A program made the translations under genes and the position numbers. From Salinimicrobium tongyeongense (GTDB lineage: Bacteria > Bacteroidota > Bacteroidia > Flavobacteriales > Flavobacteriaceae), in the NCBI RefSeq assembly GCF_026109735.1, contig NZ_CP069620.1:2108001-2172000 (forward strand): a stretch of DNA of 64,000 nucleotides, written 5' to 3'. Below, piece after piece: positions 3,817 to 59,294 of the stretch. Under the pieces are notes generated by a model that worked only from the letters and a program-made list of their open reading frames with translations, made no database searches and was not told the origin of the DNA. Every line of letters starts with the position of its first letter. Position 1 is the stretch's first letter.

Positions 3817-3840
3817 AGGTGTCAAAAATGGCTTTTTTGA
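3817..3840. repeat. Dispersed palindrome copy (CAAAAATG type)
   Basis: Reads AGGTGTCAAAAATGG followed by CTTTTTTGA: a full left half-site and a slightly decayed right half. It sits in the 92-bp gap before the 62-residue protein gene and ends three bases before that gene's stop codon. Confidence 0.7.
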
Positions 3841-3843
3841 ACC

Positions 3844-4032
3844 CTAGGCAAAGACATCAGAGAAAAACAGCAGGCCCAGCACCACAATAGCAATGATCAC
3901 AATAATGGCGATCATTCCCAGGCTGCCGCCAGATTTCTCTTCGGTTGACTGATTGACATGGTACTTTTTGTCAGTTTTCTTATTCTCTACGGGCGTAGAT
4001 TTTTTATTCTCCTTGCGATCGTTAGTTTCCAT
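3844..4032 (-). CDS. Small single-pass membrane protein, unknown function
   Basis: The 62-residue product has a strongly charged N-terminal half (METNDRKENKKSTPVENKKT, many Lys and Glu) followed by a hydrophobic helix at about residues 38-58 (LGMIAIIVIIAIVVLGLLFF). The likely topology is a C-terminal tail anchor with the charged part in the cytoplasm. I do not recognise a family. It stands between two unrelated minus-strand genes with about 100 bp on each side, so it is probably monocistronic. The contrast between hydrophilic and hydrophobic halves makes a chance frame unlikely. Confidence 0.65.
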   Translation of the reverse strand: METNDRKENKKSTPVENKKTDKKYHVNQSTEEKSGGSLGMIAIIVIIAIVVLGLLFFSDVFA

Positions 4033-4133
4033 GATAAAAGCTTTAAAACTTTAAGGTACAAAATTGCCTTTAGAAACTTCTGCTTCTATATTTGTGCAGG
4101 GGCACAATTAAGAAAAGTTTAGAGGTTTAAGCT

Positions 4134-5027
4134 TTAGTAAAGCTTTTTCCAGTCAATTTGCTGAAGGATCTCTTCCAGCTCTTTTTTGGGAATATCCAGC
4201 GGCGTGGCGGGCAGTTTATCTCCTTCTCCCGGGCTAAGCGGGTACCCAAAAATGCGCATTAGCGGCCCGGCTTTTATTGCAGCTTTTTCAAGCCTGTCTA
4301 TGCTTAACTGCTTTACCCACTTTCGGCTTTTGCCTTTATGAAGATGTCGCGGATTATCTTCTTTCATGCTGGAAAAGCTCACTTCTGAAGCAACTGCCTT
4401 CTTTTCATTCTCTTCAAGCTGAAGGCCGAGATACTTCAGCAAAGAATCGTATTCCTTCGGAAAGGATTTCAGCAGGTTTTCGTAAAAAACAAAATGCAGA
4501 TCGAGCTCTTTTGAATGCAGCAGGTAATTTCCGTAGAACCAGACCCATTGCTCCAGGAGGCGTTCATATTCCGCAGAAAAAAAATCTTCCACCGACTCAT
4601 AAGGCGAAGGGTAATGCTTCTGCATGTAAGGCGTAAAGGCAAATTTAGCGGCCGAAAGCGCAGTATCCCGCGGATCTCTTACCATGCAGACTTTCCTGTC
4701 AAAAAGGGCAAAAACGGTGGCAGTTTTCTGGCACCAGGTAGAATGCGTCCAGGCCAGGCTGGCTTTTTGGGAATAGGCCTGCAGGTTGGGTACAGGCTCT
4801 TTGAGCAGGGAACTTACCCTAAAGAACACGCCTTTATCTTCAATGTCGAGCATATCGGTTCCTGCCTGGTCTTCAAAACTCAGCTTTTCCTGCTTTAACC
4901 TGGCATATTCGGGCCGGGATTTTATAAAATAGGAGATTTCTTCACCTGTCTTTTCAAGGCTTTTCTTTAAAATGGTATTTAGCCAAAAGCTACCCGATTT
5001 TGGGGCACTAACCTGTAGAATGTTCAT
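4134..5027 (-). CDS. Sulfotransferase-domain protein
   Basis: The 297-residue protein resembles cytosolic sulfotransferases that move sulfate from PAPS to a hydroxyl or amine acceptor. The N-terminal VSAPKSGSFWLNTIL matches the 5'-phosphosulfate loop (PKSGTxW type, Lys10 and Ser11). VCMVRDPRDTALS near residue 113 matches the 3'-phosphate-binding motif (RDPRD, with a downstream Ser), and a C-terminal KGKSRKWVKQL resembles the RKGxxGDW-like region. No PAPS synthesis genes or obvious acceptor pathway lie nearby, so the substrate (polysaccharide, lipid or small molecule) cannot be assigned. The gene stands alone. Confidence 0.85.
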   Translation of the reverse strand: MNILQVSAPKSGSFWLNTILKKSLEKTGEEISYFIKSRPEYARLKQEKLSFEDQAGTDMLDIEDKGVFFRVSSLLKEPVPNLQAYSQKASLAWTHSTWCQKTATVFALFDRKVCMVRDPRDTALSAAKFAFTPYMQKHYPSPYESVEDFFSAEYERLLEQWVWFYGNYLLHSKELDLHFVFYENLLKSFPKEYDSLLKYLGLQLEENEKKAVASEVSFSSMKEDNPRHLHKGKSRKWVKQLSIDRLEKAAIKAGPLMRIFGYPLSPGEGDKLPATPLDIPKKELEEILQQIDWKKLY

Positions 5028-5156
5028 TTTTCTGCTTTTTAGCCCAGAAGTTATAAAATTTAGAGGAAACCTTCCTGTCTTTCTTCTTAAGTTTACGGTT
5101 TCGAAACTATGCTGGCATGGTACTTGAACAAACCCCCGGCAAATAAAACTTTTATT

Positions 5157-5633
5157 ATGATTAAAGTAAACAAACTGGCAGGAGCATTAATGTTCTTTTT
5201 GATAATGGGCAGCACGGCGGCTTTTGCACAGGAGCAACAGGCGCCGGCACAGCAGGAACAATCGGCTGAAGTGAGCGATGCCGAATTGACCAAATTTGTA
5301 CAGGCGCTGCAGGGCGTACAACAGGTGGCGATGGAAGCACAACAAAAAATGATGCAGCTGGTGCAGGACGAAGGCATGGATTTCGCCCGTTTCAACGAGA
5401 TCCACCAGGCTTCGGTAAATCCTGAAGCTGAGGTAGAAGCTACTTCCGAAGAAAAGGAAACTCACAAAAAGATCATTGCCGAATTTGAATCTATGCAGGA
5501 GGGACTTCAGCAACAACTTGAGGAACATATCAAAAAACAGGGGCTTACCATGGAGAGATATGAGCAAATTGCCATGCAGGTTCAAACCGATATGCAACTT
5601 CAGCAGAGAATCCAACAGATGATACAGGGTTAA
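5157..5633 (+). CDS. DUF4168 domain exported protein
   Basis: I start the protein at 5157 (MIKVNKLAGALMFFLIMG), which gives a normal signal peptide ending TAAFAQ. An upstream in-frame ATG at 5109 would add 16 residues lacking signal-peptide character. The mature part is Gln/Glu-rich with two helical blocks: FVQALQGVQQVAMEAQQKM near residue 42, and a C-terminal MERYEQIAMQVQTDMQLQQRI. This paired arrangement is that of DUF4168 proteins, which are exported and of unknown function. The gene is followed by a clear terminator and appears monocistronic. Confidence 0.85.
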   Translation: MIKVNKLAGALMFFLIMGSTAAFAQEQQAPAQQEQSAEVSDAELTKFVQALQGVQQVAMEAQQKMMQLVQDEGMDFARFNEIHQASVNPEAEVEATSEEKETHKKIIAEFESMQEGLQQQLEEHIKKQGLTMERYEQIAMQVQTDMQLQQRIQQMIQG

Positions 5634-5654
5634 ACCTCCACAAAATATTCTTTT

Positions 5655-5683
5655 AAAAAGGCTGTTCTAAACGGCCTTTTTTT
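5655..5683 (+). terminator. Rho-independent terminator after the DUF4168 gene
   Basis: A 10-bp stem (AAAAAGGCTG pairing with CGGCCTTTTT, one T-G pair) with a short loop, followed by a T-run, 21 bp downstream of the stop codon. Confidence 0.85.
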
Positions 5684-5860
5684 GTGCCCAATATTAAGAG
5701 GTTTGTTAGCAGCATCCCAAAAAAGGCTGGTGAGCCTATAAAGTATCGTTAAAAAGTTTTGCTGAAAGTTCTCTTTCTTTAATTTTAAAACACACAAAAT
5801 CAGGCTGATGTGATTTCACTTCTGATTTTTCGATGCTTTTAAAAAGAAAAACTTACCAGT

Positions 5861-7012
5861 ATGCTAGCAATGAATTACCGCGGTCCTTTCAGGATTCGTG
5901 CAGACCGAGACCGCCCTTTCCCCGAAATTGAGCATCCCGAAGATGCTATTGTAAAAGTTACCAGAAGCTGTATTTGTGGCTCAGACCTTCACCTGTATCA
6001 CGGCCTGGTGCCCGATACCCGTGTGGGAACTACTTTTGGCCATGAATTTATAGGAGAAGTGGTAGATGTAGGCGCATCGGTCACTAAAGTGAAGGTGGGT
6101 GACCAGGTGATGGTGCCCTTTAACATTGCCTGTGGGAAATGTGCTTTTTGCAGGCAGGAGATGTATGGGATGTGCCATGAAGCCAATCCGCAGTCTACCG
6201 CTGCCGGGGGGATTTTCGGGTATTCGCACACCACCGGGGGTTACCACGGCGGGCAGGCAGAATATGTGCGGGTTCCTTATGCCAATGTTGGCCCCACGGT
6301 AATTCCAGACTGGATGCACCCCGATGATGCCGTGCTGCTTACCGATGTGGTACCCACAGGATATCAGGCTGCCGAAATGGGAGGAATTCAGGAAGGTGAT
6401 ACGGTGGTGGTTTTTGGTGCAGGCCCCATTGGGATCATGGCAGCAAAATCGGCCTGGCTATTTGGAGCAGGCAGGGTGATCGTGATAGATAAGCTCGATT
6501 ACCGGCTTGAATTTGTAAAGGAATTCGCACAATGCGAGGTGTATAACTTCACGGCACTTGAAGACCCTGTGGTGTTCATTAAAAAAATCACAGATTCCCT
6601 GGGAGCCGATGTTTGTATAGATGCCGTGGGTGCCGAAGCCGCAGGAGATACTATGAACACCATGCTGGGGCGAAAACTCCTCATGCAGGGAGGTTCAACA
6701 ACCGCATTGCACTGGGCAATTAATTCGGTCAAAAAAGGCGGAATTGTTTCTATAGTCGGTGTGTATGGGCCTATAGATGCGCTGGTGCCCATAGGGAATG
6801 TGGTGAACAAGGGCATTACCATCAGGGCGAGCCAGGCTTCGGTAAAAAGGCTGCTGCCAAAAATGATAGAGCACGTAAAATCGGGCGCAATAAAGCCGAA
6901 AGAAATGATCACGCACCGAATCCCGCTGGAAGAGGTGGCCGAGGGTTACCACATTTTCAGCAATAAGCTCGACAATTGTATAAAAACCGTGCTTATCCCG
7001 CCAACAGCATAA
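5861..7012 (+). CDS. Zinc-dependent alcohol dehydrogenase (MDR family, formaldehyde-dehydrogenase-like)
   Basis: The 383-residue protein has all the parts of a zinc medium-chain dehydrogenase. The catalytic zinc site is Cys39 (CICGSDLH) with GHE at 60-62, the structural zinc site is Cys91, Cys94, Cys97 and Cys105, and the NAD(P)-binding fold carries GAGPIG at 186-191. Length and the extended middle segment (LMQGGSTTALHWAINSVKKGG) resemble glutathione-independent formaldehyde/threonine-type dehydrogenases. It oxidises an alcohol or aldehyde with NAD(P); the true substrate is not determined. A second in-frame ATG lies three codons in. The following gene starts 29 bp later and is probably co-transcribed. 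Confidence 0.92.
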   Translation: MLAMNYRGPFRIRADRDRPFPEIEHPEDAIVKVTRSCICGSDLHLYHGLVPDTRVGTTFGHEFIGEVVDVGASVTKVKVGDQVMVPFNIACGKCAFCRQEMYGMCHEANPQSTAAGGIFGYSHTTGGYHGGQAEYVRVPYANVGPTVIPDWMHPDDAVLLTDVVPTGYQAAEMGGIQEGDTVVVFGAGPIGIMAAKSAWLFGAGRVIVIDKLDYRLEFVKEFAQCEVYNFTALEDPVVFIKKITDSLGADVCIDAVGAEAAGDTMNTMLGRKLLMQGGSTTALHWAINSVKKGGIVSIVGVYGPIDALVPIGNVVNKGITIRASQASVKRLLPKMIEHVKSGAIKPKEMITHRIPLEEVAEGYHIFSNKLDNCIKTVLIPPTA

Positions 7013-7041
7013 GCAGTATTTCAAATTTAAAAACAGAATCT

Positions 7042-7563
7042 ATGATCGGAGATCAAACCAAGCCCGAAGACTTTGAGAACGTTGGAGGGGGCGACCACAG
7101 CCATATAAAAGGATGGGGAATAGACCGGGATCCAAAAAACGATCCCACTTACCCCATGAAACATAGAACAGATGAAGAAATTGAAGGTTACACCTGGGAG
7201 CGGCCCGAGCAGCAGCCTGTGAACATCGAGGTGTTGCATTCGGTGGAACGGCCTAATATTCCGGCGGTTTTTGGAACCGCACAACCCCCACAGGGCCTGA
7301 GCGGCGCTTTGCGGCGGTTTGCTTTTAAGTACAGCGAATCGAGCTATGGGCGCTGGCTACCGCTGGTAATGGCCGACAGGCTTGGGGAAATTGAAGGCAT
7401 AGTTGATGACCTCAAAAAAGGCCATATCCCAAACCTTTTCGCCGAGCACGGCTTAAAATCTGAATGGAAGTACAACCGCAAGAAATTTGTGCTAAAATCG
7501 GCAGTTACCGCAGCTGCATTGGCTGGTGTCCTGCTGTTTCTCACGCGCGACAAAAAAGATTAA
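7042..7563 (+). CDS. Conserved hypothetical protein with C-terminal membrane helix
   Basis: The start at 7042 (MIGDQTKPEDF) avoids overlap with the dehydrogenase; an upstream ATG at 6976 lies inside that gene. The product is 173 residues: a hydrophilic, Pro- and Gly-rich N-terminal half (HIKGWGIDRDPKNDPTYPMK), a middle segment SSYGRWLPLVMADRLGEIE, and a C-terminal hydrophobic helix at about 152-167 (AVTAAALAGVLLFLT) with a charged tail. I do not recognise a domain. Close spacing behind the alcohol dehydrogenase suggests one transcript. It may be a membrane-tethered accessory or stress protein, but the sequence gives no mechanism. Confidence 0.75.
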   Translation: MIGDQTKPEDFENVGGGDHSHIKGWGIDRDPKNDPTYPMKHRTDEEIEGYTWERPEQQPVNIEVLHSVERPNIPAVFGTAQPPQGLSGALRRFAFKYSESSYGRWLPLVMADRLGEIEGIVDDLKKGHIPNLFAEHGLKSEWKYNRKKFVLKSAVTAAALAGVLLFLTRDKKD

Positions 7564-7593
7564 GCCGAAGTTTATATTCGGTTAAATGAAAAA

Positions 7594-7635
7594 CACAGGT
7601 GCCAAAAATGCCATTTTTGGCACCTGTGTTTTTTT
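7594..7635. terminator. Bidirectional terminator built from a perfect palindrome copy
   Basis: A 35-bp perfect palindrome at 7594-7628 (arm CACAGGTGCCAAAAATG, single central C) has A-rich sequence on its left and T7 on its right, between two convergent genes. It is the cleanest copy of the dispersed palindrome in the window and should stop transcription from both sides. Confidence 0.85.
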
Positions 7636-7645
7636 ATACAGCATA

Positions 7646-8941
7646 TTATTTCAGAAGAAAATTCTTCAGGTCTTCGTAATCCGAAATTTGCACAGCTTTT
7701 TTTTCCTGGTGTTTCAGGTTTTCAATTTCGGGCGGGAGCGGGATCTTTTTTTCGATCACAGCTTCAATAGTTTCCAGAAACTTTACGGGGTGGGCCGTTT
7801 CGAGGAAAATTCCGTAGTGATCTTTATGGGTTTTCAGAAATTCTTTAAGCCCTAAATAGCCTACAGCACCATGTGGATCGAGCAAGTATCCCGTATTTTC
7901 AAAAACCTCTTTTACAGCCTGTTTGGTCTGGGAATCGCTAACACTGTAAGAGGATAAATTCTTTTTAAGGTCTTCAAAATTATTGCTGAAGAGCTCCAGG
8001 ATCCTTATAAAATTGCTAGGATCGCCCACATCCATAGCGTTAGAGATGGTCTGCACACTGGCGGTAGGTTCATATTTTTGCGTTTGCAAAAACCGGGTGA
8101 CCACGTTGTTCTCATTGTTGGCAGCTACAAAATGGTCAATAGGCAGCCCCATTTCTTTGGCGAGGAGCCCGGCGCAAATATTTCCGAAGTTTCCACTGGG
8201 CACCGAAAAAGCCAGTTTCTGATCTTTGTGCTTAAGCTGCCGGTAGGCCAGGAAATAGTAGAACATTTGAGGCAGCCAGCGCGCCACATTGATCGAATTG
8301 GCCGAAGTGAGTTTTTTGTGCTGCCGAATTTCTGGATCCAGAAATGCCGTTTTTACCATGTTCTGGCAGGTGTCAAAAGGCCCGTCAACCTCGAGGGCCG
8401 TGATATTTTCCCCCAGCGTGGTGAGCTGTTTCTCCTGGATCTCACTTACTTTCCCCTTTGGGTAGAGAATGACCACTTCAATGCCTTTAACCTTCAGGAA
8501 CCCACGGGCCACGGCGCCGCCGGTATCGCCCGATGTTGCTACCAGCACGGTAAGGCCTGGAAGATTGCCTTTCTTTATGAAATAGCCCAGGCTGCCCGCC
8601 ATAAATCTGGCACCCACATCTTTAAAAGCCAGGGTAGGGCCGTGAAACAGTTCGAGTACACCCACCCGGTCTTCCACAGCTTTTACCGGAAAGTCAAAAT
8701 CAAGCGTGTTTTCTATAATTTTTGAGAGTTCGGCTGGGGGGATTTCATCTTCCACATAGGGACCAATCGCTTTTTGCGCAATTTGGGTAGGTGTAAGGGA
8801 AGAGATTTGTTCAAAAAACTGCTGCGGCAGCTTTTTTATTTCCTGCGGAAAGTAAAGCCCTTTTTTTGGCCCTAGACTATTAAGCACTGCGGTTTCGAAA
8901 TTTACTTTATGGTTTTTATCGTTTAAACTGAAGTACTTCAT
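7646..8941 (-). CDS. thrC: Threonine synthase
   Basis: The 431-residue PLP enzyme turns O-phosphohomoserine into threonine, the last step of the pathway. The PLP lysine is Lys107 in LAFKDVGARF, and the phosphate-binding ATSGDTGGAVA follows near residue 135. SVPSGNFGNICAG and the C-terminal DPHGAVGYLGL are typical of the family. The start overlaps thrB by 4 bp, so it is translated as the last gene of thrA-thrB-thrC. The palindromic terminator just beyond its stop codon ends the operon. Confidence 0.96.
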   Translation of the reverse strand: MKYFSLNDKNHKVNFETAVLNSLGPKKGLYFPQEIKKLPQQFFEQISSLTPTQIAQKAIGPYVEDEIPPAELSKIIENTLDFDFPVKAVEDRVGVLELFHGPTLAFKDVGARFMAGSLGYFIKKGNLPGLTVLVATSGDTGGAVARGFLKVKGIEVVILYPKGKVSEIQEKQLTTLGENITALEVDGPFDTCQNMVKTAFLDPEIRQHKKLTSANSINVARWLPQMFYYFLAYRQLKHKDQKLAFSVPSGNFGNICAGLLAKEMGLPIDHFVAANNENNVVTRFLQTQKYEPTASVQTISNAMDVGDPSNFIRILELFSNNFEDLKKNLSSYSVSDSQTKQAVKEVFENTGYLLDPHGAVGYLGLKEFLKTHKDHYGIFLETAHPVKFLETIEAVIEKKIPLPPEIENLKHQEKKAVQISDYEDLKNFLLK

Positions 8942-9861
8942 GATATAATTTTTACGCCTTCATTCCCTATTTTTGAGAGGTGAAGATCAAAGTCGATTTC
9001 CTTTTCCTGATAGTATTTCTGAATAGCTGCGCCGGTTTTTTTTGCTGCAGCCTCGCCTTTGCACAAAGCAAATACCGAAGGGCCAGAGCCCGAAATCCCA
9101 AATCCCAAAGCACCGCTTTCAAGGGCGATAGCCTTAAGGTCGTCAAAAAAGGGAATGAGAATGGAACGCACCGGTTCTACAATTTCATCTTTGAGGCTTC
9201 TGCCCAAAAGTTCGTAGTCATTTGAATACAGGGCACTTACAAATGCCCCCAGATTGTCCCATTGTTTTACCGCTTTTTGAAGGCTGATATTCTGCCTGAT
9301 AATAGAGCGCGAATCCATGGTCTTTACCTCTATTAACGGGTGCAGGATCACCATGCGCAAATCTTGCGGAGAGGGCAGGGGAATTACTTCCAGCGGCTCG
9401 TAACTTCTTATGAGGTTAAAGCCGCCCAAAAGTGCCGGTGCCACATTATCGGCATGGGCATTTCCGCTGGCAAGGCGTTCCCCTTCCATAGCAAAAGGGA
9501 TGAGTTCTTCGGGTGAAAAAGGTTCTTTAAGGAGTTTGTTGGCGGCAAAAACGGCTCCTGCCGAGCTGGCTGCACTGCTGCCAATGCCGCTTCCGGCTTT
9601 GATTTTTTTATAGATCCCTATATCAAAACCCTGTTGTGAACCCAGCTTCTTCAGCAGCGCACGAACGGCCACTCCTGCTACATTTTTATCTGCTTCCAAA
9701 GGAAGGTCCTGCCCGGTGATCATGGTAATTCTGATCTCGCCGCTGGAATTCTTCCGAAGCAGCATTTCATCGCCTATAGATTCCAGGCAGCAGCCCAAAA
9801 CGTCAAATCCGCAGGATAAATTTGCAACAGTTGCCGGAGCAAATACTTTGATTTCTTCCAT
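8938..9861 (-). CDS. thrB: Homoserine kinase
   Basis: The 307-residue GHMP-family kinase phosphorylates homoserine with ATP. The N-terminal FAPATVANLSCGFDVLGCCL is the family substrate/ATP region, KIKAGSGIGSSAASSAGAV at 87-103 is the glycine-serine phosphate loop, and GALGFGISGSGPSVFAL is the C-terminal motif. It starts 3 bp after the stop of thrA and overlaps thrC by 4 bp, which fixes its place in the operon. Confidence 0.96.
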   Translation of the reverse strand: MEEIKVFAPATVANLSCGFDVLGCCLESIGDEMLLRKNSSGEIRITMITGQDLPLEADKNVAGVAVRALLKKLGSQQGFDIGIYKKIKAGSGIGSSAASSAGAVFAANKLLKEPFSPEELIPFAMEGERLASGNAHADNVAPALLGGFNLIRSYEPLEVIPLPSPQDLRMVILHPLIEVKTMDSRSIIRQNISLQKAVKQWDNLGAFVSALYSNDYELLGRSLKDEIVEPVRSILIPFFDDLKAIALESGALGFGISGSGPSVFALCKGEAAAKKTGAAIQKYYQEKEIDFDLHLSKIGNEGVKIIS

Positions 9862-9864
9862 GGC

Positions 9865-12312
9865 CTATTTTTTTCCGATCCTTATTATGTCGGCAAAGAT
9901 CCCGGAGGCGGTAACATCGGCACCGGCACCTGCGCCTTTCACGATCAATGGCTGCTGGCTGTAGCGATCGGTAAAGAAAAGTACGATGTTGTCACTGCCG
10001 CTCAGATTATAGAACGGATGCTCTGGCCCCACTTGTTGCAGCCCCACACTGGCCTCGCCGTTTTCAAGCTGGGCCACATATTTTAACTGGGCATTGTTCT
10101 GGGCAGCATGGTCATAGATCTCTTTGAATTTAGATTCGTCTTTCTTCAGTATCTCAAAGAATTCTTCATTAGAACCGGCTTCAAGGCTCTCTTGAGAAAG
10201 AAAACTCTTGTTTTCTATATCTTCAAGTTCCATCTGGAGTCCGCTTTCGCGGGAAAGGATGAGTATTTTCCGGGCCACATCAACGCCACTCAGGTCAATA
10301 GTGGGATCGGGTTCGGTATAGCCTTCTTTCATGGCTTTTTCCACCACCTTGTAAAATGGTTCTGTGGCATCATAGTTATTGAAAACAAAATTGAGGCTAC
10401 CCGAAAGCACCGCCTGAATTTTAGTAATTCTATCCCCCGAAGCCACGAGGTTCTTAAGCGTGTCTATAATGGGCAGGCCGGCACCCACGTTGGTTTCGTA
10501 TAAAAAGGAAGCCCCGTATTCGCGTGATAGATCCTGCAGTCTTGAATAGCTTTTGAATTCCTGCGAACAGGCGATCTTGTTACAGGTCACTACCGAAATG
10601 GAGTGGGAGAGGTACTTCTCGTATAAAGAGGAGATCTCGGGGCTGGCTGTATTGTCAACAAAAATGCTGTTGCGAAGGTTGAGGGATTTTACCTGCTCAA
10701 AAAAGGCATTTTTGTCACCCTTTTCCCCGTTTTCAAGAAGTTCCTTCCAGTGGGTAAGATCGAGTCCGTTCTCGTCGAACACCATTTTCCGGGAGTTGGA
10801 GAGGCCAAGTACCCTCACTTTAAGCCGAAGCTTGTCCAGGAGGTAGGTTTCCTGATTTTTTAACTGGTTGAGCAGTTTGCTGCCCACGTTGCCCACCCCG
10901 GTAATGAAGAGGTTGAGCTCTTTGGAAGGCACTTCAAAGAATTGTTCGTGAAGCACATTCAATGCCTTGTTCACATCTTTTCTGGCAATCACGGCCGAAA
11001 TGTTGCGTTCTGAAGAGCCCTGCGCGATCGCCCTGATGTTAATATTGTTATTGCCCAGCGCACTGAACATCTTTCCGCTTAGCCCGTGATGGCTCTTCAT
11101 GCGGTCGCCTACCAGCGCAACAATGGCGATATCATCTTCAATTTCCATACTTTTAATTTTCCCCGACTGTATCTCTACCTCAAATGCTTCATTGAGCGCA
11201 TCTTTTGCAGCCTGGGCTTCATCCTCTTTTAGGGCAAGGCAAATGCTGTGTTCAGAAGAAGCCTGGGTGATTAAAACCACACTGATGTTCACGTGAAATA
11301 GCGCCTCAAAACAGCGTTTTGAAAACCCGGCTACGCCTACCATGCCGCTGCCTTCAATATTGATCAGTTTTACGGCATCAATATGGGTGATGCCGGTAAC
11401 CCATCTAAAGTTTTCTTTACTTCCTTTAGAAATAAGGGTTCCGGGTTCGTTGGGGTTAAAAGTGTTTTTGATATTGATCTTGATCTCATTTTTGAGAAGG
11501 GGCTGAAGGGTGGGCGGGTACAAAACCTTTGCGCCAAAATGCGAAAGCTCCATGGCCTCTTCATATGAGATGTTTTTTAATGCATATGCCTGTGGTACTA
11601 TACTTGGGTTTGCAGTGTACATTCCGTCTACATCGGTGTAAACTTTAAGCAGTTGCAAGTTGAGCGCGCCGGCAAAGATCGCTGCCGTAAAGTCAGATCC
11701 GCCCCGGCCCAGTGTGCTGGGAACGCCCTGTTCATTGCGGGCTACAAATCCGGGTGCAACAAAGAGTTTTGCCTTGTTCTGCTTAAAAAAATCCTGGATG
11801 TTTTTGTACGTCTTGTCGTAGTGTACCTGAATTTTCTCCTGGGTATTACGGCAAACAATGAGCTCACGGCTGTCTACAAACAGCACGTCTTCTCCCAGGC
11901 TTTTAAAATATTCAGCAATAATGAGCGAGGAGAGGATTTCTCCAAACCCCGAGATCACATGCCGGGTGCGGTCAGACAATTCGTTTAGCAGGTACACCCC
12001 TTCATACAGTGTTTCCAGGCGGTTGAATTCATTCTTTACCCGGGCCAGGATCCTGCTTTGATCCTTTACCTGTATCAATTCCTTGACTACATTAAGATGT
12101 CTTTTTTCATTTTTTTCAAGCAGGTCTTTATAAGAAGCGTCTTCATTTGCGGCGAGTTCGGCCATTTGCAGGAGCTCATTGGTGACGCCGCCAAAAGCTG
12201 AAAATACAGCAATGGTATTATCGGTATTTACGTGATCTTGAACAATTTTTGCAGCGAGCTTTATATTCTTCGAAGAGGCGACAGAAGAGCCCCCGAATTT
12301 CAGGATATTCAT
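9865..12312 (-). CDS. thrA: Bifunctional aspartokinase / homoserine dehydrogenase
   Basis: The 815-residue fusion carries the first and third steps of the aspartate pathway. Residues 1-300 are aspartokinase (FGGSSVASSKNI at 6-16, GRGGSDFTA at 202-210, TDVDGMYTANP near 226). Regulatory ACT domains follow to about 460 (GMVGVAGFSKRCFEAL, IVALVGDRMKSHHG). Homoserine dehydrogenase runs from about 465 (LFITGVGNVGSKLL Rossmann turn, NVGAGLPIIDTL, EPDPTIDLSGVDVARK). The ACT domains imply feedback control by threonine. The gene leads thrABC and is preceded by a Thr/Ile/Met-rich leader peptide. Confidence 0.96.
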   Translation of the reverse strand: MNILKFGGSSVASSKNIKLAAKIVQDHVNTDNTIAVFSAFGGVTNELLQMAELAANEDASYKDLLEKNEKRHLNVVKELIQVKDQSRILARVKNEFNRLETLYEGVYLLNELSDRTRHVISGFGEILSSLIIAEYFKSLGEDVLFVDSRELIVCRNTQEKIQVHYDKTYKNIQDFFKQNKAKLFVAPGFVARNEQGVPSTLGRGGSDFTAAIFAGALNLQLLKVYTDVDGMYTANPSIVPQAYALKNISYEEAMELSHFGAKVLYPPTLQPLLKNEIKINIKNTFNPNEPGTLISKGSKENFRWVTGITHIDAVKLINIEGSGMVGVAGFSKRCFEALFHVNISVVLITQASSEHSICLALKEDEAQAAKDALNEAFEVEIQSGKIKSMEIEDDIAIVALVGDRMKSHHGLSGKMFSALGNNNINIRAIAQGSSERNISAVIARKDVNKALNVLHEQFFEVPSKELNLFITGVGNVGSKLLNQLKNQETYLLDKLRLKVRVLGLSNSRKMVFDENGLDLTHWKELLENGEKGDKNAFFEQVKSLNLRNSIFVDNTASPEISSLYEKYLSHSISVVTCNKIACSQEFKSYSRLQDLSREYGASFLYETNVGAGLPIIDTLKNLVASGDRITKIQAVLSGSLNFVFNNYDATEPFYKVVEKAMKEGYTEPDPTIDLSGVDVARKILILSRESGLQMELEDIENKSFLSQESLEAGSNEEFFEILKKDESKFKEIYDHAAQNNAQLKYVAQLENGEASVGLQQVGPEHPFYNLSGSDNIVLFFTDRYSQQPLIVKGAGAGADVTASGIFADIIRIGKK

Positions 12313-12347
12313 ATGGTTAGATTTTAAAAACTATAAATGGTTTGATG

Positions 12348-12459
12348 TCTTGTTTAAAAAACAAGATGGTATGCGGACGGAAATTATATTAGCTCACTAC
12401 CCCCAAGGGGTAATCATAATCATCGTAGAAATAGTCATCATGGCAACAGTCCCTGTTGC
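12348..12459 (-). promoter_or_regulatory. Candidate thr operon leader/attenuator region
   Basis: On the minus strand, reading toward thrA, there is first a 7-bp hairpin (12459-12443, GCAACAG/CTGTTGC). The short leader frame (12441-12397) follows, with a TACCCC/GGGGTA hairpin over its last codons, and then an AT-rich 8-bp hairpin (12366-12348, TCTTGTTT with its complement) ends 35 bp before the thrA start. A classical GC-rich stem with a U-run is not evident, so the mechanism (attenuation or translational control) is open. Confidence 0.5.
12397..12441 (-). CDS. thrL: Putative threonine operon leader peptide
   Basis: A 14-residue frame, MMTISTMIMITPWG, ends 84 bp upstream of thrA on the same strand. 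Ten of its 14 residues are Met (4), Thr (3) or Ile (3), all end-products of the aspartate branch that thrABC feeds. This is the pattern of leader peptides whose translation senses charged tRNA. An in-frame ATG at 12498 would extend it to 33 residues, but the enrichment is confined to the last 14. The peptide is presumably not functional in itself; stalling on Thr, Ile or Met codons would alter RNA folding at the overlapping hairpin. Confidence 0.55.
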   Translation of the reverse strand: MMTISTMIMITPWG

Positions 12460-12499
12460 GGAAAGAAATAGATTATATGTGGACTGTTGATTGCTCATG

Positions 12500-12796
12500 T
12501 ACGGCTAACAGTTGGTGAATATATTCAATATTTTTAATTAAAGAAACTAATCCTAATAATTTTTGCTAAAAAACTGTATGTTTTTTAAAATACCGGGGGT
12601 TTTGGGTTTACGATAGATAACTTTTCTACTAAAGGGTGTTTTGGTGTGTAAGCAGTGCCAGCAAAGAGCAGAAGCCTGTTAATAAGACTATTAAAAAAAT
12701 ATTAATTAGGTTTTTTATTAGGGTATTTAGCATAGCATTAACGGCGATTGCAATTTCATCTGGGTACTTTGAAAAAAACCTAAAAAAAGAGCTATT
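12500..12796. other. Intergenic region between thr leader and the three-repeat lipoprotein gene
   Basis: AT-rich, with no credible frame on either strand. It should contain two divergent promoters. A TACTTTG at 12765-12771, 26 bp before the lipoprotein start, resembles the flavobacterial -7 box but is one base short of TAnnTTTG. No other structure was seen. Confidence 0.4.
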
Positions 12797-13993
12797 ATGA
12801 AATTAAAGAAATTTTATCTTCTAATGTTGCCAATAATTCTAAGTCTCGGATTAGTGGCGTGTAGTGATGATGACGATGGTGGGGTAGACCCAGAACTTCC
12901 ACCAACCGGAGCTATTGTTGTAGATGAGCAGGTAACTGTGCAGGATGGTACCTTAACCATCAATTCGGTAAATATTAGTGAAGACGGTTGGGTGGTAATT
13001 CACCGTGATGATGACGGAGCACCTGTAGTGCCTGAAATTATCTCTGTTCCCAAACAAATTGATGATGGGCCTACCACTAATGTGACTATTGAGTTAAAAG
13101 ACGGGGAACAGGTACAAAACGGAGAAACCCTTTGGGTAATGCTTCACGTAGATAACGGCCAGAGCGGCGTGTATGAATTTGATACCGTTGACGGCGTTGA
13201 TGCCCCTGTGACCGATTTACAGGGAGATATCGTAACCCTGCCATTTACTGCGACTGTAGAAGGTGATGATGTATTGCTTACTGCTGCCGATCAGGATCTT
13301 GTGAACGGAGTGGTTTATGTTGAATCTATTAGCCTTGAAGAAGACGGTTGGGTGGTGATCCACGAATCTAATGCCAACGGAGACGGGCCTCAGGTTCCTG
13401 AAATCATTTCTCAGGCTGTTTATCTTGAAGCCGGTGCCTATGCTAATGTAGGTGTGCCATTGAAAGAAGACGCCACAGTTGAAGCCGGAGATGTTCTATG
13501 GGTAATGCTCCATGAAGACACCGGGGAAGAGGGTGTTTATGAATTTGACGGGGAGAATGAACTTGACAGTCCTCTTACAAAAGATGGGGACATTGTTGTT
13601 ACTTCCATTACCATCAATGATGTCACTGAGGCTGCAATGAGCGGTATGCTTACGGTAAACGACCAGCCAATCGCCGATAATACCATTACTGTTGAAGCCA
13701 TTAATGTTGATATGGACGGATGGGTTGTAGTTCACGCTTCAAATGAAGCCGGAGACGGGCCCCAGGTTCCCGAGATCATTTCTGAACCTGTTTACCTTGA
13801 AGCCGGAGACAACACCGATGTTGTGGTTACTTTTGAAGAAGACGCCAATGTTGCTGCAGGAGATACCGTTTGGGTAATGCTGCATGACGATACGGGAGTT
13901 GAAGAAGTCTATGAATTCGACAACATGAACGGGCTTGATTTGCCTCTGTTTGATGATGACGGAATCATTGTCACTCCTATCACTCTAGAGTAG
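12797..13993 (+). CDS. Lipoprotein with three tandem DUF7282-like repeats
   Basis: The 398-residue protein begins with a lipoprotein signal (LSLGLVAC, lipid-anchor Cys22) and an acidic tether SDDDDGG. Three repeats of about 120 residues follow. Each has DGWVVIH-type (at 63, 183 and 307), VPEIIS, G-x-LWVMLH and VYEFD blocks. This fits DUF7282-like domains, known mainly from archaeal and bacterial surface proteins of unknown role. The protein is very acidic. Repeats 2 and 3 are closest to each other (both GDGPQVPEIIS), suggesting a later duplication. It is monocistronic, with a terminator after it. It is probably a surface-anchored beta-rich protein; no catalytic residues are evident. Confidence 0.8.
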   Translation: MKLKKFYLLMLPIILSLGLVACSDDDDGGVDPELPPTGAIVVDEQVTVQDGTLTINSVNISEDGWVVIHRDDDGAPVVPEIISVPKQIDDGPTTNVTIELKDGEQVQNGETLWVMLHVDNGQSGVYEFDTVDGVDAPVTDLQGDIVTLPFTATVEGDDVLLTAADQDLVNGVVYVESISLEEDGWVVIHESNANGDGPQVPEIISQAVYLEAGAYANVGVPLKEDATVEAGDVLWVMLHEDTGEEGVYEFDGENELDSPLTKDGDIVVTSITINDVTEAAMSGMLTVNDQPIADNTITVEAINVDMDGWVVVHASNEAGDGPQVPEIISEPVYLEAGDNTDVVVTFEEDANVAAGDTVWVMLHDDTGVEEVYEFDNMNGLDLPLFDDDGIIVTPITLE

Positions 13994-14012
13994 TAAATAA
14001 TTGCTGATAATG

Positions 14013-14043
14013 AAAGGCTGCCGGTTTTGGCGGCCTTTTTTTT
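14013..14043 (+). terminator. Rho-independent terminator after the three-repeat lipoprotein gene
   Basis: Stem AAAGGCTGCC/GGCGGCCTTT with a short GGTTTT loop and T8, 20 bp after the stop codon. Confidence 0.88.
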
Positions 14044-14150
14044 ATTCCCAAGGTTGAATTTAAACCGGGCAGCTCCATAATCCAATACAGGCTTGATGCC
14101 AGCTACTCTCTAATACTTAAGCTGAAAATCAATAATTCGTTCCTTGTGCT

Positions 14151-14171
14151 TCAAAAATGCCATTTTAGAAG
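14151..14171. repeat. Dispersed palindrome copy
   Basis: TTCAAAAATG, then C, then CATTTTAGAA, placed between two convergent genes (three-repeat lipoprotein and DUF808). Confidence 0.65.
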
Positions 14172-14188
14172 AGTTTTTTCTGAAGCAT

Positions 14189-15064: not shown

Positions 15065-15192
15065 AGTGGGGTGTGTTTTTGTAGGGCAAGATAAGGGGTT
15101 TTGGAATTACCCTATAAATAGATTGGTGGTAAAGAAAAGTTATTTTTTAGGTGGTAATTTCTTCGGAAGTAAAAAGAGAATAAAAAAAGACT

Positions 15193-15218
15193 GCTCAAAA
15201 ATGACATTTTTGAGAGGT
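15193..15218. repeat. Dispersed palindrome copy
   Basis: GCTCAAAAATG, A, CATTTTTGAG plus AGGT, a perfect core palindrome, about 130 bp upstream of the DUF808 gene. The 262-bp gap around it has no other feature seen except two CTTCSGAAG motifs (15161 and 15310). Confidence 0.75.
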
Positions 15219-15325
15219 AAGCCTAAAGCTGGCTTCAGCTTAAAAAAAGTATATTACTGAAAAAGCTCTCCTAATTTACATAAACCGAAGAGCCTGAAGA
15301 CATGGTATTCTTCCGAAGAAATAGG

Positions 15326-15577: not shown

Positions 15578-15628
15578 AACTATTAGTAGGCTTTGGTGCT
15601 GGTTTGGCTGATGTTTTTTTTAATTTTA

Positions 15629-17531: not shown

Positions 17532-17608
17532 ATATCTGAATTAGCAGAAGTGAAAGTAAGTAATTTGTAGATATGCAGGGAAAATCTTCTGAAAAATTCT
17601 ACTAAGAA

Positions 17609-17636
17609 AGGTGTTAAAAAAGGCATTTTTGAATGG
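17609..17636. repeat. Dispersed palindrome copy
   Basis: AGGTGTTAAAAAAGGCATTTTTGAATGG, given here as positions only for its outer parts: a left half with two changes and an intact CATTTTTGA right half, in the gap downstream of the ferric-reductase-like gene's neighbour. Confidence 0.55.
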
Positions 17637-53427: not shown

Positions 53428-54954
53428 TTAATGTTTAAAATGCCTCGTGCCGGTCATTACCATAGCGAGATTATTCTCGTTGCAGTAATCTATACTTAGC
53501 TGATCCTTAATTGATCCGCCGGGTTGAATAACGGCAGTGATCCCTGCTTTATCTGCAATCTCCACGCAATCGGGGAACGGGAAAAAAGCATCGCTGGCCA
53601 TTACTGCGCCTTGCAGGTCAAATTCAAAAGAATTAGCTTTTTCAATGCTCTGTCTCAACGCATCAACCCTCGATGTTTGCCCGGTGCCGCTAGCCAGTAA
53701 CTGGTTATTCTTTACCAGAACGATAGTATTTGATTTGGTGTGCTTGCAAATTTTGGAGGCAAACAACAGGTCATTTAACTCCTGCTGTGAAGGTTTATTG
53801 TTGGTAACGTACGTTAAATCTTCTGCGGAATCTGTTTTTGAATCCTTATCCTGAACCAAAATTCCGTTCAGGCAGGTGCGTACCTGCTTCTGCGGAAGTT
53901 CGGTTTCTTTCTGAACAAGTAGTACCCTGTTCTTCTTTCCTTTTAATATTTCCAAAGCTTCTTCGGAATAACCAGGGGCAATCACCACTTCACAAAACAG
54001 CTCATGTATCTCTTCGGCAGTAGCCTTGTCTATTTCTGTGTTGGCAATAAGAATTCCTCCAAAAGCCGAAACAGGGTCTCCCGCCAAAGCATCTTTGTAA
54101 GCATCGAGCAGGGTTTCCCGCTGCGCCAGTCCGCAGGCATTATTGTGCTTTAAAATGGCAAAAGTGGGGGCTTCATTTTGAAATTCATTCATCAAATTTA
54201 CAGCCGCATCTACATCCAGTAAATTGTTGTACGATAACTCCTTGCCGTGCAGCTTGTCAAACATGGCCGAAAATTCTCCGTAAAAATGCCCTTTTTGATG
54301 GGGATTCTCCCCGTATCTTAATTCGAGTCCGCCGTTGAAGCTCTCTTTATAAGTCTGCTCTTCGTTATTCAGATAATTGAAGATGGCAGTGTCGTAATGA
54401 GAAGACACGTTAAATGCCTTTGCGGCAAATCTTTTGCGGTCATTCAGGCTTGTCTGGCCTTTTCCTTCAGAAATAATTCCTAAAAATTCGGAATAACTGT
54501 CTACTGAAGGTACACAAATCACATCTTTATAATTCTTGGCAGCTGCCCTTATTAAAGAAATGCCGCCAATATCAATTTTTTCAATGATCTCTTCTTCCGA
54601 AGCATTTGAAGCCACCGTTTTTTCAAACGGGTAGAGGTCTACAATCACAATGTCTATCTGTGGGATTTCATACTGCTCCAGTTCGGCTTTATCCTGTTCG
54701 TTTTCACTGCGGTTAAGAATACCTCCAAAAACTTTTGGGTGCAGCGTTTTTACACGCCCGCCAAGAATGGAAGGATAGGAAGTAATATCCTCTACCGGCA
54801 CTACATTTACTCCCAGTTCTTTAATAAATTTTTCGGTTCCTCCTGTAGAGTAGATGGTGACACCCAGCTCGTTAAGCTTTTTTACAACAGGTTCAAGTCC
54901 TTCTTTGCTGAAGACAGAAATAAGTGCAGATTTGGCCGATTTTAGGTCGCTCAT
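53428..54954 (-). CDS. purH: Bifunctional AICAR transformylase / IMP cyclohydrolase
   Basis: The 508-residue enzyme carries out the last two steps of IMP synthesis. Residues 1-130 form the cyclohydrolase domain (SALISVFSKEGLEPVVKKL, GRVKTLHPKVFGGIL, DIGGISLIRAAAKNYKDV). The rest is the transformylase (LRYGENPHQKGHFYG, HNNACGLA, DAFFPFPDCVEIADKAGITAVIQPGGS). Codons at 54279-54304 match the dispersed palindrome core, although the protein there is conserved. It is divergent from the ABC permease. Confidence 0.97.
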   Translation of the reverse strand: MSDLKSAKSALISVFSKEGLEPVVKKLNELGVTIYSTGGTEKFIKELGVNVVPVEDITSYPSILGGRVKTLHPKVFGGILNRSENEQDKAELEQYEIPQIDIVIVDLYPFEKTVASNASEEEIIEKIDIGGISLIRAAAKNYKDVICVPSVDSYSEFLGIISEGKGQTSLNDRKRFAAKAFNVSSHYDTAIFNYLNNEEQTYKESFNGGLELRYGENPHQKGHFYGEFSAMFDKLHGKELSYNNLLDVDAAVNLMNEFQNEAPTFAILKHNNACGLAQRETLLDAYKDALAGDPVSAFGGILIANTEIDKATAEEIHELFCEVVIAPGYSEEALEILKGKKNRVLLVQKETELPQKQVRTCLNGILVQDKDSKTDSAEDLTYVTNNKPSQQELNDLLFASKICKHTKSNTIVLVKNNQLLASGTGQTSRVDALRQSIEKANSFEFDLQGAVMASDAFFPFPDCVEIADKAGITAVIQPGGSIKDQLSIDYCNENNLAMVMTGTRHFKH

Positions 54955-56400: not shown

Positions 56401-56432
56401 GTTTGGCAATCAATACTTTAAAAACCATGTAC

Positions 56433-57749: not shown

Positions 57750-57770
57750 AAAAGGAAACCATACAACAAG

Positions 57771-57783
57771 GGGTGCCAAAAAT
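57771..57783. repeat. Left part of palindrome interrupted by IS element
   Basis: GGGTGCCAAAAAT is the left half-site of the dispersed palindrome. The remainder, CCAAAAATG-T-CATTTTTGG with ACCCC-type end, is at 59214-59236 after the IS; CCAAAAAT is duplicated. Confidence 0.8.
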
Positions 57784-57787
57784 AGAG

Positions 57788-57826
57788 TGCCCCCAAAAAG
57801 TTAGACACTTATTGGGGGCATTTTTT
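57788..57826 (+). terminator. Terminator-like hairpin at IS left end
   Basis: TGCCCCCAA (57788-57796) pairs with TTGGGGGCA (57812-57820), followed by T6 and then directly by the orfA start codon at 57827. It can stop transcripts entering from the serine hydrolase gene, or block orfA translation from such transcripts. Confidence 0.65.
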
Positions 57827-58365
57827 ATGGATAAAAGAGTAAAGTATGACTATAAATTTAAAAGGACTATAGTCTTAGAAGTTATCAAGAAGGGATTATC
57901 GTGTTATTCAGTAGGTAACAAGCATGGTCTACAGGTAACAAGCATGGTCTACGTAAGTCATTAGTGCAAAAATGGGTTAGGTTTTATAAGGCTCACGGTG
58001 CTAAAGGATTACGACCTATTAGAAATAAATATTCAGAAAAATTTAAGGCGAGAGTAGTTCTGGAGATGAAAGAGAAATCTCTATCTTACCAAGAAACTTG
58101 TGTGCTCTTCAAGATTCCAACCGAGGAAACCTTTAAGCGATGGTTGAAGATTTATGAAGAGAAAGGGCCAGAAGGTTTATCAATAGAAAAACGAGGAAAA
58201 CCTAAATCTATGCCTAGAAAGCCTAAAAAACCTATGACCCGAGAGGAGCAACTTTTGGATGAGTTAGCTGATCTTAAAGCAGAAAATGCTTATCTAAAAA
58301 AGCTTCATGCCTTAGTTCAATCAGAAAAAGAGAAAGAAGAAAAACGCAAATCATCCAGGAATTAA
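57827..58365 (+). pseudogene. IS150-type transposase OrfA, frameshifted
   Basis: Reading from 57827 (MDKRVKYDYKFKRTIVLEVIKK) the frame holds the first helix-turn-helix, then runs into a tandem 20-bp duplication (57913-57932 and 57933-57952, unit beginning AGGTAACAAGC) and stops at 57964. After the duplication the right frame continues to 58365 (KWVRFYKAHGAKGL, second helix-turn-helix, and a C-terminal leucine-zipper DELADLKAENAYLKKL). Removing one copy of the unit restores a 172-residue OrfA. OrfA binds the IS ends and forms the frameshift fusion with OrfB, so transposition should be impaired. Confidence 0.9.
57913..57952. repeat. 20-bp perfect tandem duplication in orfA
   Basis: Two exact head-to-tail copies of a 20-bp unit; 20 is not a multiple of three, so the frame shifts. 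Replication slippage is the likely cause; identity of the copies suggests a recent event. Confidence 0.95.
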
Positions 58366-59183
58366 GGCAAGAGCATGCGCTAGAAAAACTACTAAAGCAT
58401 GCCGGGATGGCACGTAGTACCTTTTACTATCACTTAAAGGCCAGTAAACAGGATAAGTATGAGGTTCTTCGTAAAGAAATCAGATCTATATATGATCTAC
58501 ACAAGGGACGCTATGGGTACAGGAGAATCCAGTTAACTCTGAAGAACAAAGGCTATGTAGTGAATCACAAGACTGTGTTTAAGCTCATGCAGGAGCTAGG
58601 GATCAGCAGTTTGATAAGGGTCAAGAAATATACTTCCTACAGAGGAAACCAAGGGAAAATAGCGGCTAACTTGTTAAAGCAAAATTTTAAAGCCGATAGA
58701 CCTAACCTAAAATGGGCAACTGATGTTACAGAGTTCAAAGTCAAAGACAAAAAGCTTTATTTATCACCTATTATAGATCTCTTCAATGGAGAAGTCCTAA
58801 GCTTTACCATCTCTGAGAGACCTAATTTTAAACAGGTAATGGATATGATTAATAAGTGTAGCAAACAGGAAAAACAGGGGCTTATTCTTCATTCTGACCA
58901 AGGATGGCAGTATCAAATGAAGCAATATCAAAAGACCCTACAGAAAAAGAACATCACCCAAAGCATGTCGAGAAAAGGAAACTGTTTAGACAATGCCGTG
59001 GCAGAAAACTTCTTTGGAACTCTAAAATCTGAGCTGTATTACCTAAATCAATATAACACTGTAGATCAACTAAAGCAGGATATAAAAGATTATATAAAAT
59101 ACTACAATTATGACAGAATAAGACTAAACCTAAATGGAATGAGCCCGATACAATATCGAGCTCACGTAGAAAATTTAATCTAA
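58344..59183 (+). CDS. IS150-type transposase OrfB (DDE catalytic subunit)
   Basis: The in-frame ATG is at 58407, but homology to IS150 OrfB begins earlier (TQIIQELRQEHALEKLLKHAG), in the -1 frame relative to OrfA and overlapping its end. This indicates production by -1 frameshifting near an A-rich site (58336-58346). The DDE residues are Asp in WATDVTEF, Asp in LHSDQGWQYQ and Glu in CLDNAVAENFFGTLKSE. The frame is complete through the typical YNYDRIRLNLNGMSPIQYR. It is intact although OrfA is broken. Confidence 0.93.
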   Translation, partial: TQIIQELRQEHALEKLLKHAGMARSTFYYHLKASKQDKYEVLRKEIRSIYDLHKGRYGYRRIQLTLKNKGYVVNHKTVFKLMQELGISSLIRVKKYTSYRGNQGKIAANLLKQNFKADRPNLKWATDVTEFKVKDKKLYLSPIIDLFNGEVLSFTISERPNFKQVMDMINKCSKQEKQGLILHSDQGWQYQMKQYQKTLQKKNITQSMSRKGNCLDNAVAENFFGTLKSELYYLNQYNTVDQLKQDIKDYIKYYNYDRIRLNLNGMSPIQYRAHVENLI

Positions 59184-59294
59184 TTATAAACCGTCCAACT
59201 TTTGGGGGCTAGTCCAAAAATGTCATTTTTGGCACCCCTTGTTTTTGAAATAATTTAAAGCTCTCCTCTGCTTAAGGTGGGGCCGGGGAGAGGA

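Follow-up and report, generated by a model that had tools for sequence, protein, structure and literature searches.

A dispersed 17-bp palindrome of Salinimicrobium that may act as a genus-specific DNA-uptake sequence

Across the window, the 64,000-nucleotide stretch of the Salinimicrobium tongyeongense chromosome analysed here, a short palindrome recurs both inside genes and in the spacers between them, including spacers between convergent genes and one edge of an insertion sequence (Table 1). The conserved unit is not GGTGTCAAAAATG but the palindrome CAAAAATG-N-CATTTTTG, 17 bp long and flanked by outer arms that vary; the GGTGTC placed before the core in the half-site of the initial annotation proved to be just one of several arm sequences. 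Twenty of the 22 positions listed there lie within a few bases of a match to CAAAAATGNCATTTTTG at up to three mismatches. The copy at 23620 has four mismatches, and at the reported IS-split site (57771/59214) we recovered the exact core on the right (59215–59231) and a partial copy beside the IS at 57771, with eight mismatches. Matches at up to three mismatches that were absent from the earlier list lie at 8339, 24543, 35560 and 62425, and the window as a whole holds 24 such core matches, compared with two for the reversed pattern. The palindrome noted at 7594 is indeed perfect but larger than the 35 bp first given, with two 22-nt arms (7589–7610 and 7612–7633) around a single nucleotide; its calculated folding energy is -30.8 kcal/mol (z -7.4) on one strand and -29.7 kcal/mol (z -6.4) on the other. 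A search of the window against Rfam at gathering thresholds returned tRNA only.

Table 1. Copies of the palindrome core in the window, with their context.
Feature	Position	Context
Core, 2 mismatches	1809–1825	Inside gene 1569–2183 (- strand)
Core, 1 mismatch, intergenic	3823–3839	Exact core in two relative loci (L055, L137); gapped alignment in a third (L074)
Perfect 22+1+22 palindrome, exact core 7603–7619	7589–7633	Between convergent genes
Core, 1 mismatch	10698–10714	In bifunctional aspartate kinase/homoserine dehydrogenase gene (9865–12312, - strand)
Core, 1 mismatch	14152–14168	Between convergent genes
Exact core, intergenic	15196–15212	
Core, 2 mismatches, intergenic	17615–17631	
Core, 2 mismatches, intergenic	20847–20863	
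Core, 1 mismatch, intergenic	23553–23569	
Core, 2 mismatches, coding	24543–24559	Absent from the earlier list
Exact core, read as KNDIF	34558–34574	In gene weakly similar to dipeptidyl-peptidases (34091–36292, + strand)
Core, 2 mismatches	40752–40768	In comEC-like gene (40514–42448, - strand)
Core, 2 mismatches	42098–42114	In comEC-like gene (40514–42448, - strand)
Cores, 3 mismatches	41677 and 42437	In comEC-like gene (40514–42448, - strand)
Core, 2 mismatches	54281–54297	In purH (53428–54954, - strand)
Exact core	59215–59231	Right edge of IS3-family insertion; partial remnant on left (57770–57783)

The enrichment of this palindrome was confirmed as real and genome-wide. Over the whole genome (3.51 Mb), CAAAAATGNCATTTTTG has 140 exact matches against none for a reversed-pattern control, and 683 against 8 at up to two mismatches. 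For finer counts we used a 464-kb sample, consisting of the window and 20 evenly spaced 20-kb stretches (L001–L020) and covering 13% of the genome. Here matches at up to 0, 1, 2 and 3 mismatches numbered 21, 41, 76 and 133, compared with 0, 1, 3 and 12 for the reversed pattern and 0, 0, 0–3 and 13–18 in three order-4 Markov simulations. At up to two mismatches, 32 of the copies are coding and 44 intergenic, while scrambled palindromes of the same letters (n=60) averaged 0.35 coding and 0.1 intergenic matches, with maxima of 3 and 1. Counts no higher than in shuffled sequence would have refuted the initial annotation; the motif stands far above both simulations and scrambled palindromes.

Exact half-sites CAAAAATG and then CATTTTTG are separated by one base in 21 cases, and by each other spacing between 0 and 29 in at most one. 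Isolated half-sites, whose partner has at least four mismatches, number 116, against about 70 expected for all half-sites under the Markov model; this excess is modest beside that of the palindrome, which is the main unit. An apparent strand bias of GGTGTCAAAAATG was judged a probable artefact of the matches listed, the totals on the two strands being 138 and 148. The motif is AT-rich, and the density of its exact copies, 140 per 3.51 Mb, is low. The first 100 exact sites are spaced randomly rather than evenly (CV 1.06).

With genes called by our own script, the 76 copies at up to two mismatches divided into 32 coding, 21 convergent, 20 tandem and 3 divergent. The coding copies are spread over all three reading frames (21/6/5) and over genes of either strand. 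Between convergent genes lie 12 of the 21 exact copies, in spacers that account for 3.3% of the sample. Complementarity of the arms at ±9 to ±16 exceeds permutation expectation, and convergent copies mostly sit within longer hairpins whose arms are complementary but variable; coding copies show no arm complementarity past the first pair. Mean folding energy is -16.2 kcal/mol for convergent copies and -8.6 for coding ones, the latter close to random 49-mers (-7.1, sd 4.0), with the motif scored on its better strand. The stable hairpin and T-tract expected of an intrinsic terminator at a gene end fit many convergent copies but not the coding ones, and the copies between convergent genes look like bidirectional terminators. 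One could therefore imagine that the palindrome is primarily a terminator family, its conserved tip selected for transcription termination, as the convergent-spacer preference, the complementary arms and the hairpin of the 7603 copy, strong on both strands, would suggest. We consider this improbable, since 32 of the 76 copies lie in genes with neither arms nor more than near-random folding, and since termination, as is well established, works without a constant AT-rich tip. The widespread terminator of the initial annotation fits many intergenic copies, mainly convergent ones, but leaves the arm-less copies in genes unexplained.

How the copies arose can be read from alignments to the corresponding loci of relatives. 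For coding copies, 12 sites gave 35 pairs when each locus is counted separately (some loci share a genome), and none of these pairs has a gap in the motif; among intergenic pairs, one of 12 was gapped there. Coding copies thus align without indels and arose by substitution, in place of homologous bases. The copy at 34558 has 0–1 mismatches in three relatives and 4–7 in six others, again without indels. It is present in its own genome and in G151, G152 and G155, a set that the tree does not contradict, and the residues K-N-D-I-F encoded here correspond to E-N-N-I-Y in G149, G150 and G153 in an alignment judged by eye. At 43092, a two-mismatch copy is found in the sisters G150 and G153 only, among eight species aligned.

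REP elements are short, hairpin-forming, extragenic palindromes that occur in many copies and flank RAYT genes. The initial annotation had also suggested a REP-like mobile element. A palindrome of this or of MITE type, mobilised by RAYT transposases, would match the motif in copy number, size and hairpin formation, and nine of the 12 Salinimicrobium genomes have RAYT/Y1-like matches (four over the cut-off, S. tongyeongense itself below it), while the two motif-poor genomes have none. This absence is a correlation that an uptake role leaves unexplained, but RAYT-like genes are also missing in the motif-rich G154 (75% complete). Only one of the 20 fetched RAYT loci, which are not all of the matches, had a copy at up to two mismatches within 300 bp; the Salinimicrobium copies do not flank RAYT genes, they also lie in coding sequence, and there they show no insertion in the 35 aligned pairs. 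Such mobility is largely refuted, and we regard it as highly improbable. An integron origin was rejected as well: in contigs of G007 the core occurs within the repeats of cassette-like arrays, but no integron integrase scored over the cut-off in the 12 genomes. The array-repeat pattern of G007 was absent from the window and L001–L020.

The 12 Salinimicrobium genomes compared, S. tongyeongense among them, represent 12 species. At up to two mismatches, ten of them have 112–698 copies; the remaining two have 43 and, in a genome that is 74% complete, 2. Copy number climbs along a one-gene tree, from 2 in G156 through 43 in G149 and 112 in G007 to 316–410 and then 683–698. In other Flavobacteriaceae (296 sampled genomes, 235 other genera) we counted 0–31 copies, with controls at 0–26; within this sample the motif is restricted to the genus Salinimicrobium. 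In a 15.5-kb conserved region, several motif-rich relatives had just 0–1 mapped copies. Gapped-palindrome and k-mer scans found no comparable dispersed palindrome in 100 kb each of four other Flavobacteriaceae genomes, nor in 240 kb of G149 and 57 kb of G156. Dialect signals in G143 and G263 turned out to be a one-stretch cluster and a tandem repeat, respectively, and the word CTTC[CG]GAAG, though enriched, was discounted as mostly coding and mostly in one frame.

Along the chromosome, copies increase with the GC content of the stretches (Spearman 0.54, P 0.0075): stretches below 0.41 hold 8 copies in 140 kb and those above it 68 in 324 kb (P 8e-5, the cut having been chosen after seeing the table). 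The motif is thus scarce in AT-rich DNA despite being AT-rich itself. No copies at up to two mismatches were present in stretches L002, L003 and L004. In L004, 11.5 kb match G149 at 100% and G151 at 99% identity, and such near-identity across species indicates recent transfer; checked over 15.5 of 20 kb, L003 and L004 are largely accessory or recently shared. In this small test, with L003 and L004 checked and GC as a proxy, the motif is commoner in the core genome and absent from recently acquired DNA.

The sites for Noc, SlmA and MatP are palindromes for homodimers, lie inside and outside genes, and number in the tens with a regional bias. The main rival to an uptake role is that our palindrome, too, is bound inside the cell by a homodimer that organises the chromosome or acts in nucleoid occlusion, with hundreds of sites instead. 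Its two-fold symmetry and fixed 1-bp centre would suit a homodimer, its sites are both genic and intergenic, and its exact copies are unevenly distributed, 23 in the first Mb and 51 in the second. However, copies occur on both sides of the origin and terminus, and across the 21 stretches, window included, there is no clear bias related to either, both having been placed from GC skew only. The sampled stretches without copies (0.225–0.595 Mb) are AT-rich and still have exact copies between them. In addition, 683 sites far exceed the numbers known for Noc, SlmA and MatP, and stepwise growth with amino-acid differences at copies would come more easily from drive than from selection at each site. 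We therefore think a nucleoid protein unlikely; if it were correct, this palindrome would organise the chromosome at an unusually high density of sites.

The best-known uptake sequences come from two families of proteobacteria, and in Neisseria they are read by the pilus protein ComP; to our knowledge, those known to date are not palindromic. As described in PMC1852404 and PMC2397512, the DUS of Neisseriaceae and USS of Pasteurellaceae resemble our motif in being short, lineage-specific and repeated hundreds of times both within and between genes, in their scarcity in recently acquired DNA, and in the enrichment of terminator-like hairpins between convergent genes. The paper on Neisseria among these also holds that many DUS are brought in by recombination and not by point mutation. 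DUS and USS differ in being asymmetric words of 9–12 nt, while the Salinimicrobium motif is a 17-bp palindrome, is more degenerate with fewer exact copies, and belongs to Bacteroidota. Being a palindrome and not an asymmetric, single-orientation word, it cannot be filed as an ordinary DUS. Asymmetry is a property of the known DUS/USS examples, not part of their definition.

HIP1 of cyanobacteria (GCGATCGC), an 8-bp, GC-rich iterated palindrome tied to methyltransferases, whose place other palindromes take in certain lineages (PMC4390886), is likewise strongly over-represented and lineage-specific. Our motif differs from it in being 17 bp long, AT-rich and partly terminator-associated. By analogy, a repair- or methylation-linked mutational bias could write our palindrome with no role in uptake. 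We find this quite improbable: 17 bp are long for a methyltransferase site, and mutational bias alone would not be expected to favour convergent spacers.

Among the three readings offered by the initial annotation, an uptake or chromosome-organising motif appears best supported. We judge the chances about even that CAAAAATGNCATTTTTG serves in DNA recognition as a self-accumulating motif specific to the genus, most likely working like a DNA-uptake sequence. The low density of exact copies, their random spacing and unequal numbers in the first and second Mb, and the 0–1 copies mapped in the 15.5-kb conserved region of several motif-rich relatives count against this. More tentatively, and with somewhat less than even confidence, we propose a palindromic Bacteroidota uptake sequence recognised by a dimeric receptor that is not related to Neisseria pilins. 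In that case the present-day species of the genus would still display, step by step, its build-up from about 0 to about 700 copies, some of which changed protein sequence. Under the uptake reading, palindrome-bearing DNA would be preferred by a homodimeric receptor of the competence pathway, alleles with the palindrome would be imported and recombined more often, and copies born by substitution would be driven up wherever a gene or spacer tolerates them. Behind a gene, selection may build complementary arms, so that the copy doubles as a terminator. Apart from being palindromic and belonging to Bacteroidota, the motif resembles DUS and USS most closely. As a self-recognition motif it would give a handle for finding the receptor, and because the 12 related genomes span 2–698 copies, the genus would allow the origin and spread of such a motif to be followed, and also show how far it can push protein sequence.

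Within the collection of papers covered, literature searches found no established uptake sequence in Bacteroidota, no report of transformation in Salinimicrobium, no paper containing the core sequence as letters in any of six forms and nothing judged relevant on palindromes in Salinimicrobium; for Flavobacteriaceae and uptake sequences they found only PMC7965970. There, Riemerella columbina, placed by the authors in the same family, is reported to prefer its own DNA, with the uptake motif described as unresolved (PMC7965970). The flavobacterium Riemerella transforms, and the authors of PMC8459023 report detecting no pilus homologues and hypothesise a novel uptake machinery. Candidate competence genes occur in Salinimicrobium, but DprA and ComEC are weak evidence because both are widespread and common in non-competent bacteria. 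DprA has a match in 11 of the 12 genomes, 10 of them over the cut-off, and the comEC-like gene in the window scores below the full-length model cut-off and above that for the N-terminal domain.

The genome is a single contig of 3.51 Mb, of which the window covers bases 2108001-2172000. In a gapped-palindrome scan of 464 kb (the window and 20 evenly spaced 20-kb stretches), one motif stood far ahead of every other signal; its conserved unit is CAAAAATG-N-CATTTTTG, and the full core was found at a gap of 1 only. Genome-wide there are 140 exact copies and 683 with up to two mismatches, compared with 0 and 8 for a control with the motif letters in reversed pattern. The 464 kb hold 21, 41, 76 and 133 matches at up to 0, 1, 2 and 3 mismatches, and three Markov simulations gave 0, 0, 0-3 and 13-18. 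Isolated half-sites are in modest excess over Markov expectation: 116 of 220 exact half-sites face a partner with at least four mismatches, and about 70 are expected for all half-sites together. A separate word, CTTC[CG]GAAG, occurs 92 times in the 464 kb (Markov expectation about 10), with 69 in genes and 50 in one frame, an excess perhaps due to codon context.

The 12 genus genomes carry 683 (own), 698, 410, 382, 361, 357, 325 (genome 75% complete), 323, 316, 112, 43 and 2 (74% complete) copies with up to two mismatches, and the reversed control gives 2-11. Across the 296 other genomes of a 299-genome family draw (three were from the genus), matches number 0-31 and controls 0-26. Exact copies in a 149-genome draw number 140 in our genome, 6 in G007 (a genus mate) and 1 in each of four others, with none in the remainder. 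A 20-bp form of the motif matches at least 120 stretches of named genomes; among the 80 matches listed, 68 are from Salinimicrobium and 12 are single strays in other groups. Maximum likelihood applied to a single protease, with four of the 16 rows taken from other genera, gives a gene tree rather than a species tree, and it includes the incomplete G156 and G154. In it G156 is the outermost member of the genus, followed by G149 (90/89), G007 (95/96) and the other nine (100/99); our genome and G151 are sisters, and two forks among the nine are not settled. Copies in tree order are 2, 43, 112, 316-410 and 683-698.

To ask how copies arise, we compared loci with relatives. A 15.5-kb region with eight copies in our genome (up to three mismatches) was matched in all 12 genus genomes, in some piecewise only; at up to two mismatches, copies mapped there in relatives number four each in G150 and G151, three in G153, one each in G152, G155 and G158, and none in the remaining genus genomes. 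Coding copies align gap-free: over the 12 coding sites for which a relative's locus could be aligned, and 35 pairs (counted by locus, some sharing one genome), none is gapped within the motif, and relatives' mismatches to the core range from 0 to 12. Coding copies were therefore written by substitution, not insertion. At intergenic sites, one of 12 pairs (nine sites) is gapped. One gene core has 0-1 mismatches in our genome, G151, G152 and G155; six others have 4-7. This site reads K-N-D-I-F in ours versus E-N-N-I-Y in G150, G153 and G149 (by eye); another copy, among eight aligned species, occurs in the sisters G150 and G153 only. Successive point mutations and recombinational import of a diverged allele would both fit substitution, and the alignments cannot separate them; a Neisseria study argues that many DUS came by such import (PMC2397512). 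That a HIP1-like mutational process writes the palindrome seems to us improbable.

Gene calls (397 genes, 86% coding) came from a codon-usage script of our own, which leaves gene borders approximate. Convergent spacers make up 3.3% of the 464 kb and hold 12 exact copies, with 5 in tandem spacers, 2 in divergent ones and 2 in genes. One-mismatch copies are 9 coding, 8 tandem and 3 convergent, and two-mismatch copies 21 coding, 7 tandem, 6 convergent and 1 divergent. Arm positions 9-16 from the centre are complementary in 57-80% of the 30 intergenic copies that have no more than one mismatch, against 28-55% with permuted partners (z 2.9-4.3). Among the 32 coding copies, the first arm pair alone stands out (z 2.1). 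Since arm sequences vary from copy to copy, it is pairing that is kept, not sequence. Mean folding energy is -16.2 kcal/mol for convergent copies (n=21), -7.5 to -10.6 for the remaining intergenic classes (n=23) and -8.6 for coding copies (n=32), each the better of two strands; random 49-mers, folded on one strand, average -7.1 (sd 4.0, n=400). A generic terminator scan of window 1-20000 showed no enrichment over shuffles (24 versus 25.3). A terminator-only reading fails, as it leaves the coding copies unaccounted for.

Stretches below 41% GC, a cut picked after the table was seen, hold 8 copies in 140 kb and those above it 68 in 324 kb (P 8e-5); across stretches, GC and copy number correlate (Spearman 0.54, P 0.0075). 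Scarcity in AT-rich stretches is the opposite of what composition predicts. Stretches L002, L003 and L004 have no copy at up to two mismatches; of these, L003 and L004 were compared with the genus across 15.5 of 20 kb each. G149 shares an 11.5-kb part of L004 at 100% identity and G151 at 99%, although in the 15.5-kb conserved region these two genomes match the window at 72-74% and 86%; this part of L004 is therefore a recently transferred element. L003 matches relatives piecewise only. Elsewhere among the sampled stretches, copies occur to either side of the skew-inferred origin and terminus. Spacing among the first 100 exact copies is random (CV 1.06); exact copies number 51 in the second Mb as against 23 in the first.

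Lineage specificity, rising number, gene copies accompanied by amino-acid differences, scarcity in newcomers and hairpins in convergent spacers together make up the profile that uptake sequences show. In the table of one Neisseria meningitidis study, 94 of 231 USS hairpins lie tail-to-tail and 3 are intragenic (PMC1852404; our sum). On the uptake reading, a receptor would recognise the palindrome, DNA carrying it would be imported preferentially, this bias would drive copy number up, and hairpin copies may also terminate transcription. The palindromic form suggests a dimeric reader and departs from the uptake sequences known to us. Its symmetry is best accounted for by the main rival, a site for a nucleoid-binding homodimer, and counts against uptake, as do low density, random spacing, uneven density along the chromosome and a literature search that found no report of transformation in Salinimicrobium. 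The genome has a DprA match, and a comEC-like gene in the window itself holds two 2-mismatch and two 3-mismatch copies; neither gene proves competence. Riemerella, which the authors of a study on it assign to this family, is competent; it requires four proteins of unknown function, and no pilus homologues were detected in it (PMC8459023). R. columbina favours its own DNA, the candidate words being A-rich k-mers that the study's authors leave open (PMC7965970).

RAYT/Y1 transposase-like matches occur in 9 of the 12 genus genomes (4 above cut-off), and none was found in the two motif-poor genomes or the incomplete G154; this absence from motif-poor genomes counts against the uptake reading, which leaves it unaccounted for. 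The initial annotation raised a REP-like mobile element; REP/RAYT mobility fails on copy placement and the absence of insertions.

No integron integrase scored above cut-off in the 12 genus genomes. Repeats of about 120 bp, attC-like in our reading of their boxes (outer near ACAACG..CGTTGT; inner GGTTAAC..GCGG / CCGC..GTTAACC), lie between small ORFs, in arrays or singly, and bear the same 17-bp palindrome. Their pattern gives 27 matches at 15 loci in Salinimicrobium, Flavobacterium sp. ASW18X and a Leeuwenhoekiella MAG.

Locations of individual features (L numbers denote sampled or matched loci)
Feature	Locus	Position	Detail
Terminator-scan site	window	7609-7622	within strongest palindrome
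Gene core with residue differences	window	34558	
Copy in two sister species	window	43092	
IS3-family insertion at palindrome copy	window	57770-59231	CCAAAAAT flanks both sides
Inverted-repeat sequence similar to that at the IS3-family site	L133		adjoins a palindrome copy
Transferred element	L004	4012-15500	
CRISPR-like array	L019	2220-5503	44 copies of GTTGTGAATTGCTTTC, spacing 75-77 bp
Local repeat, three intergenic palindrome copies	L023	11645, 12001, 12359	~356 bp apart, similar flanks
attC-like repeats	L021 (G007 contig C15)	1-15124	
attC-like repeats	L022 (G007 contig C8)	1-10187	
attC-like repeats	L034, L038, L058, L059, L061, L068, L069, L077, L085, L087, L090, L093, L101
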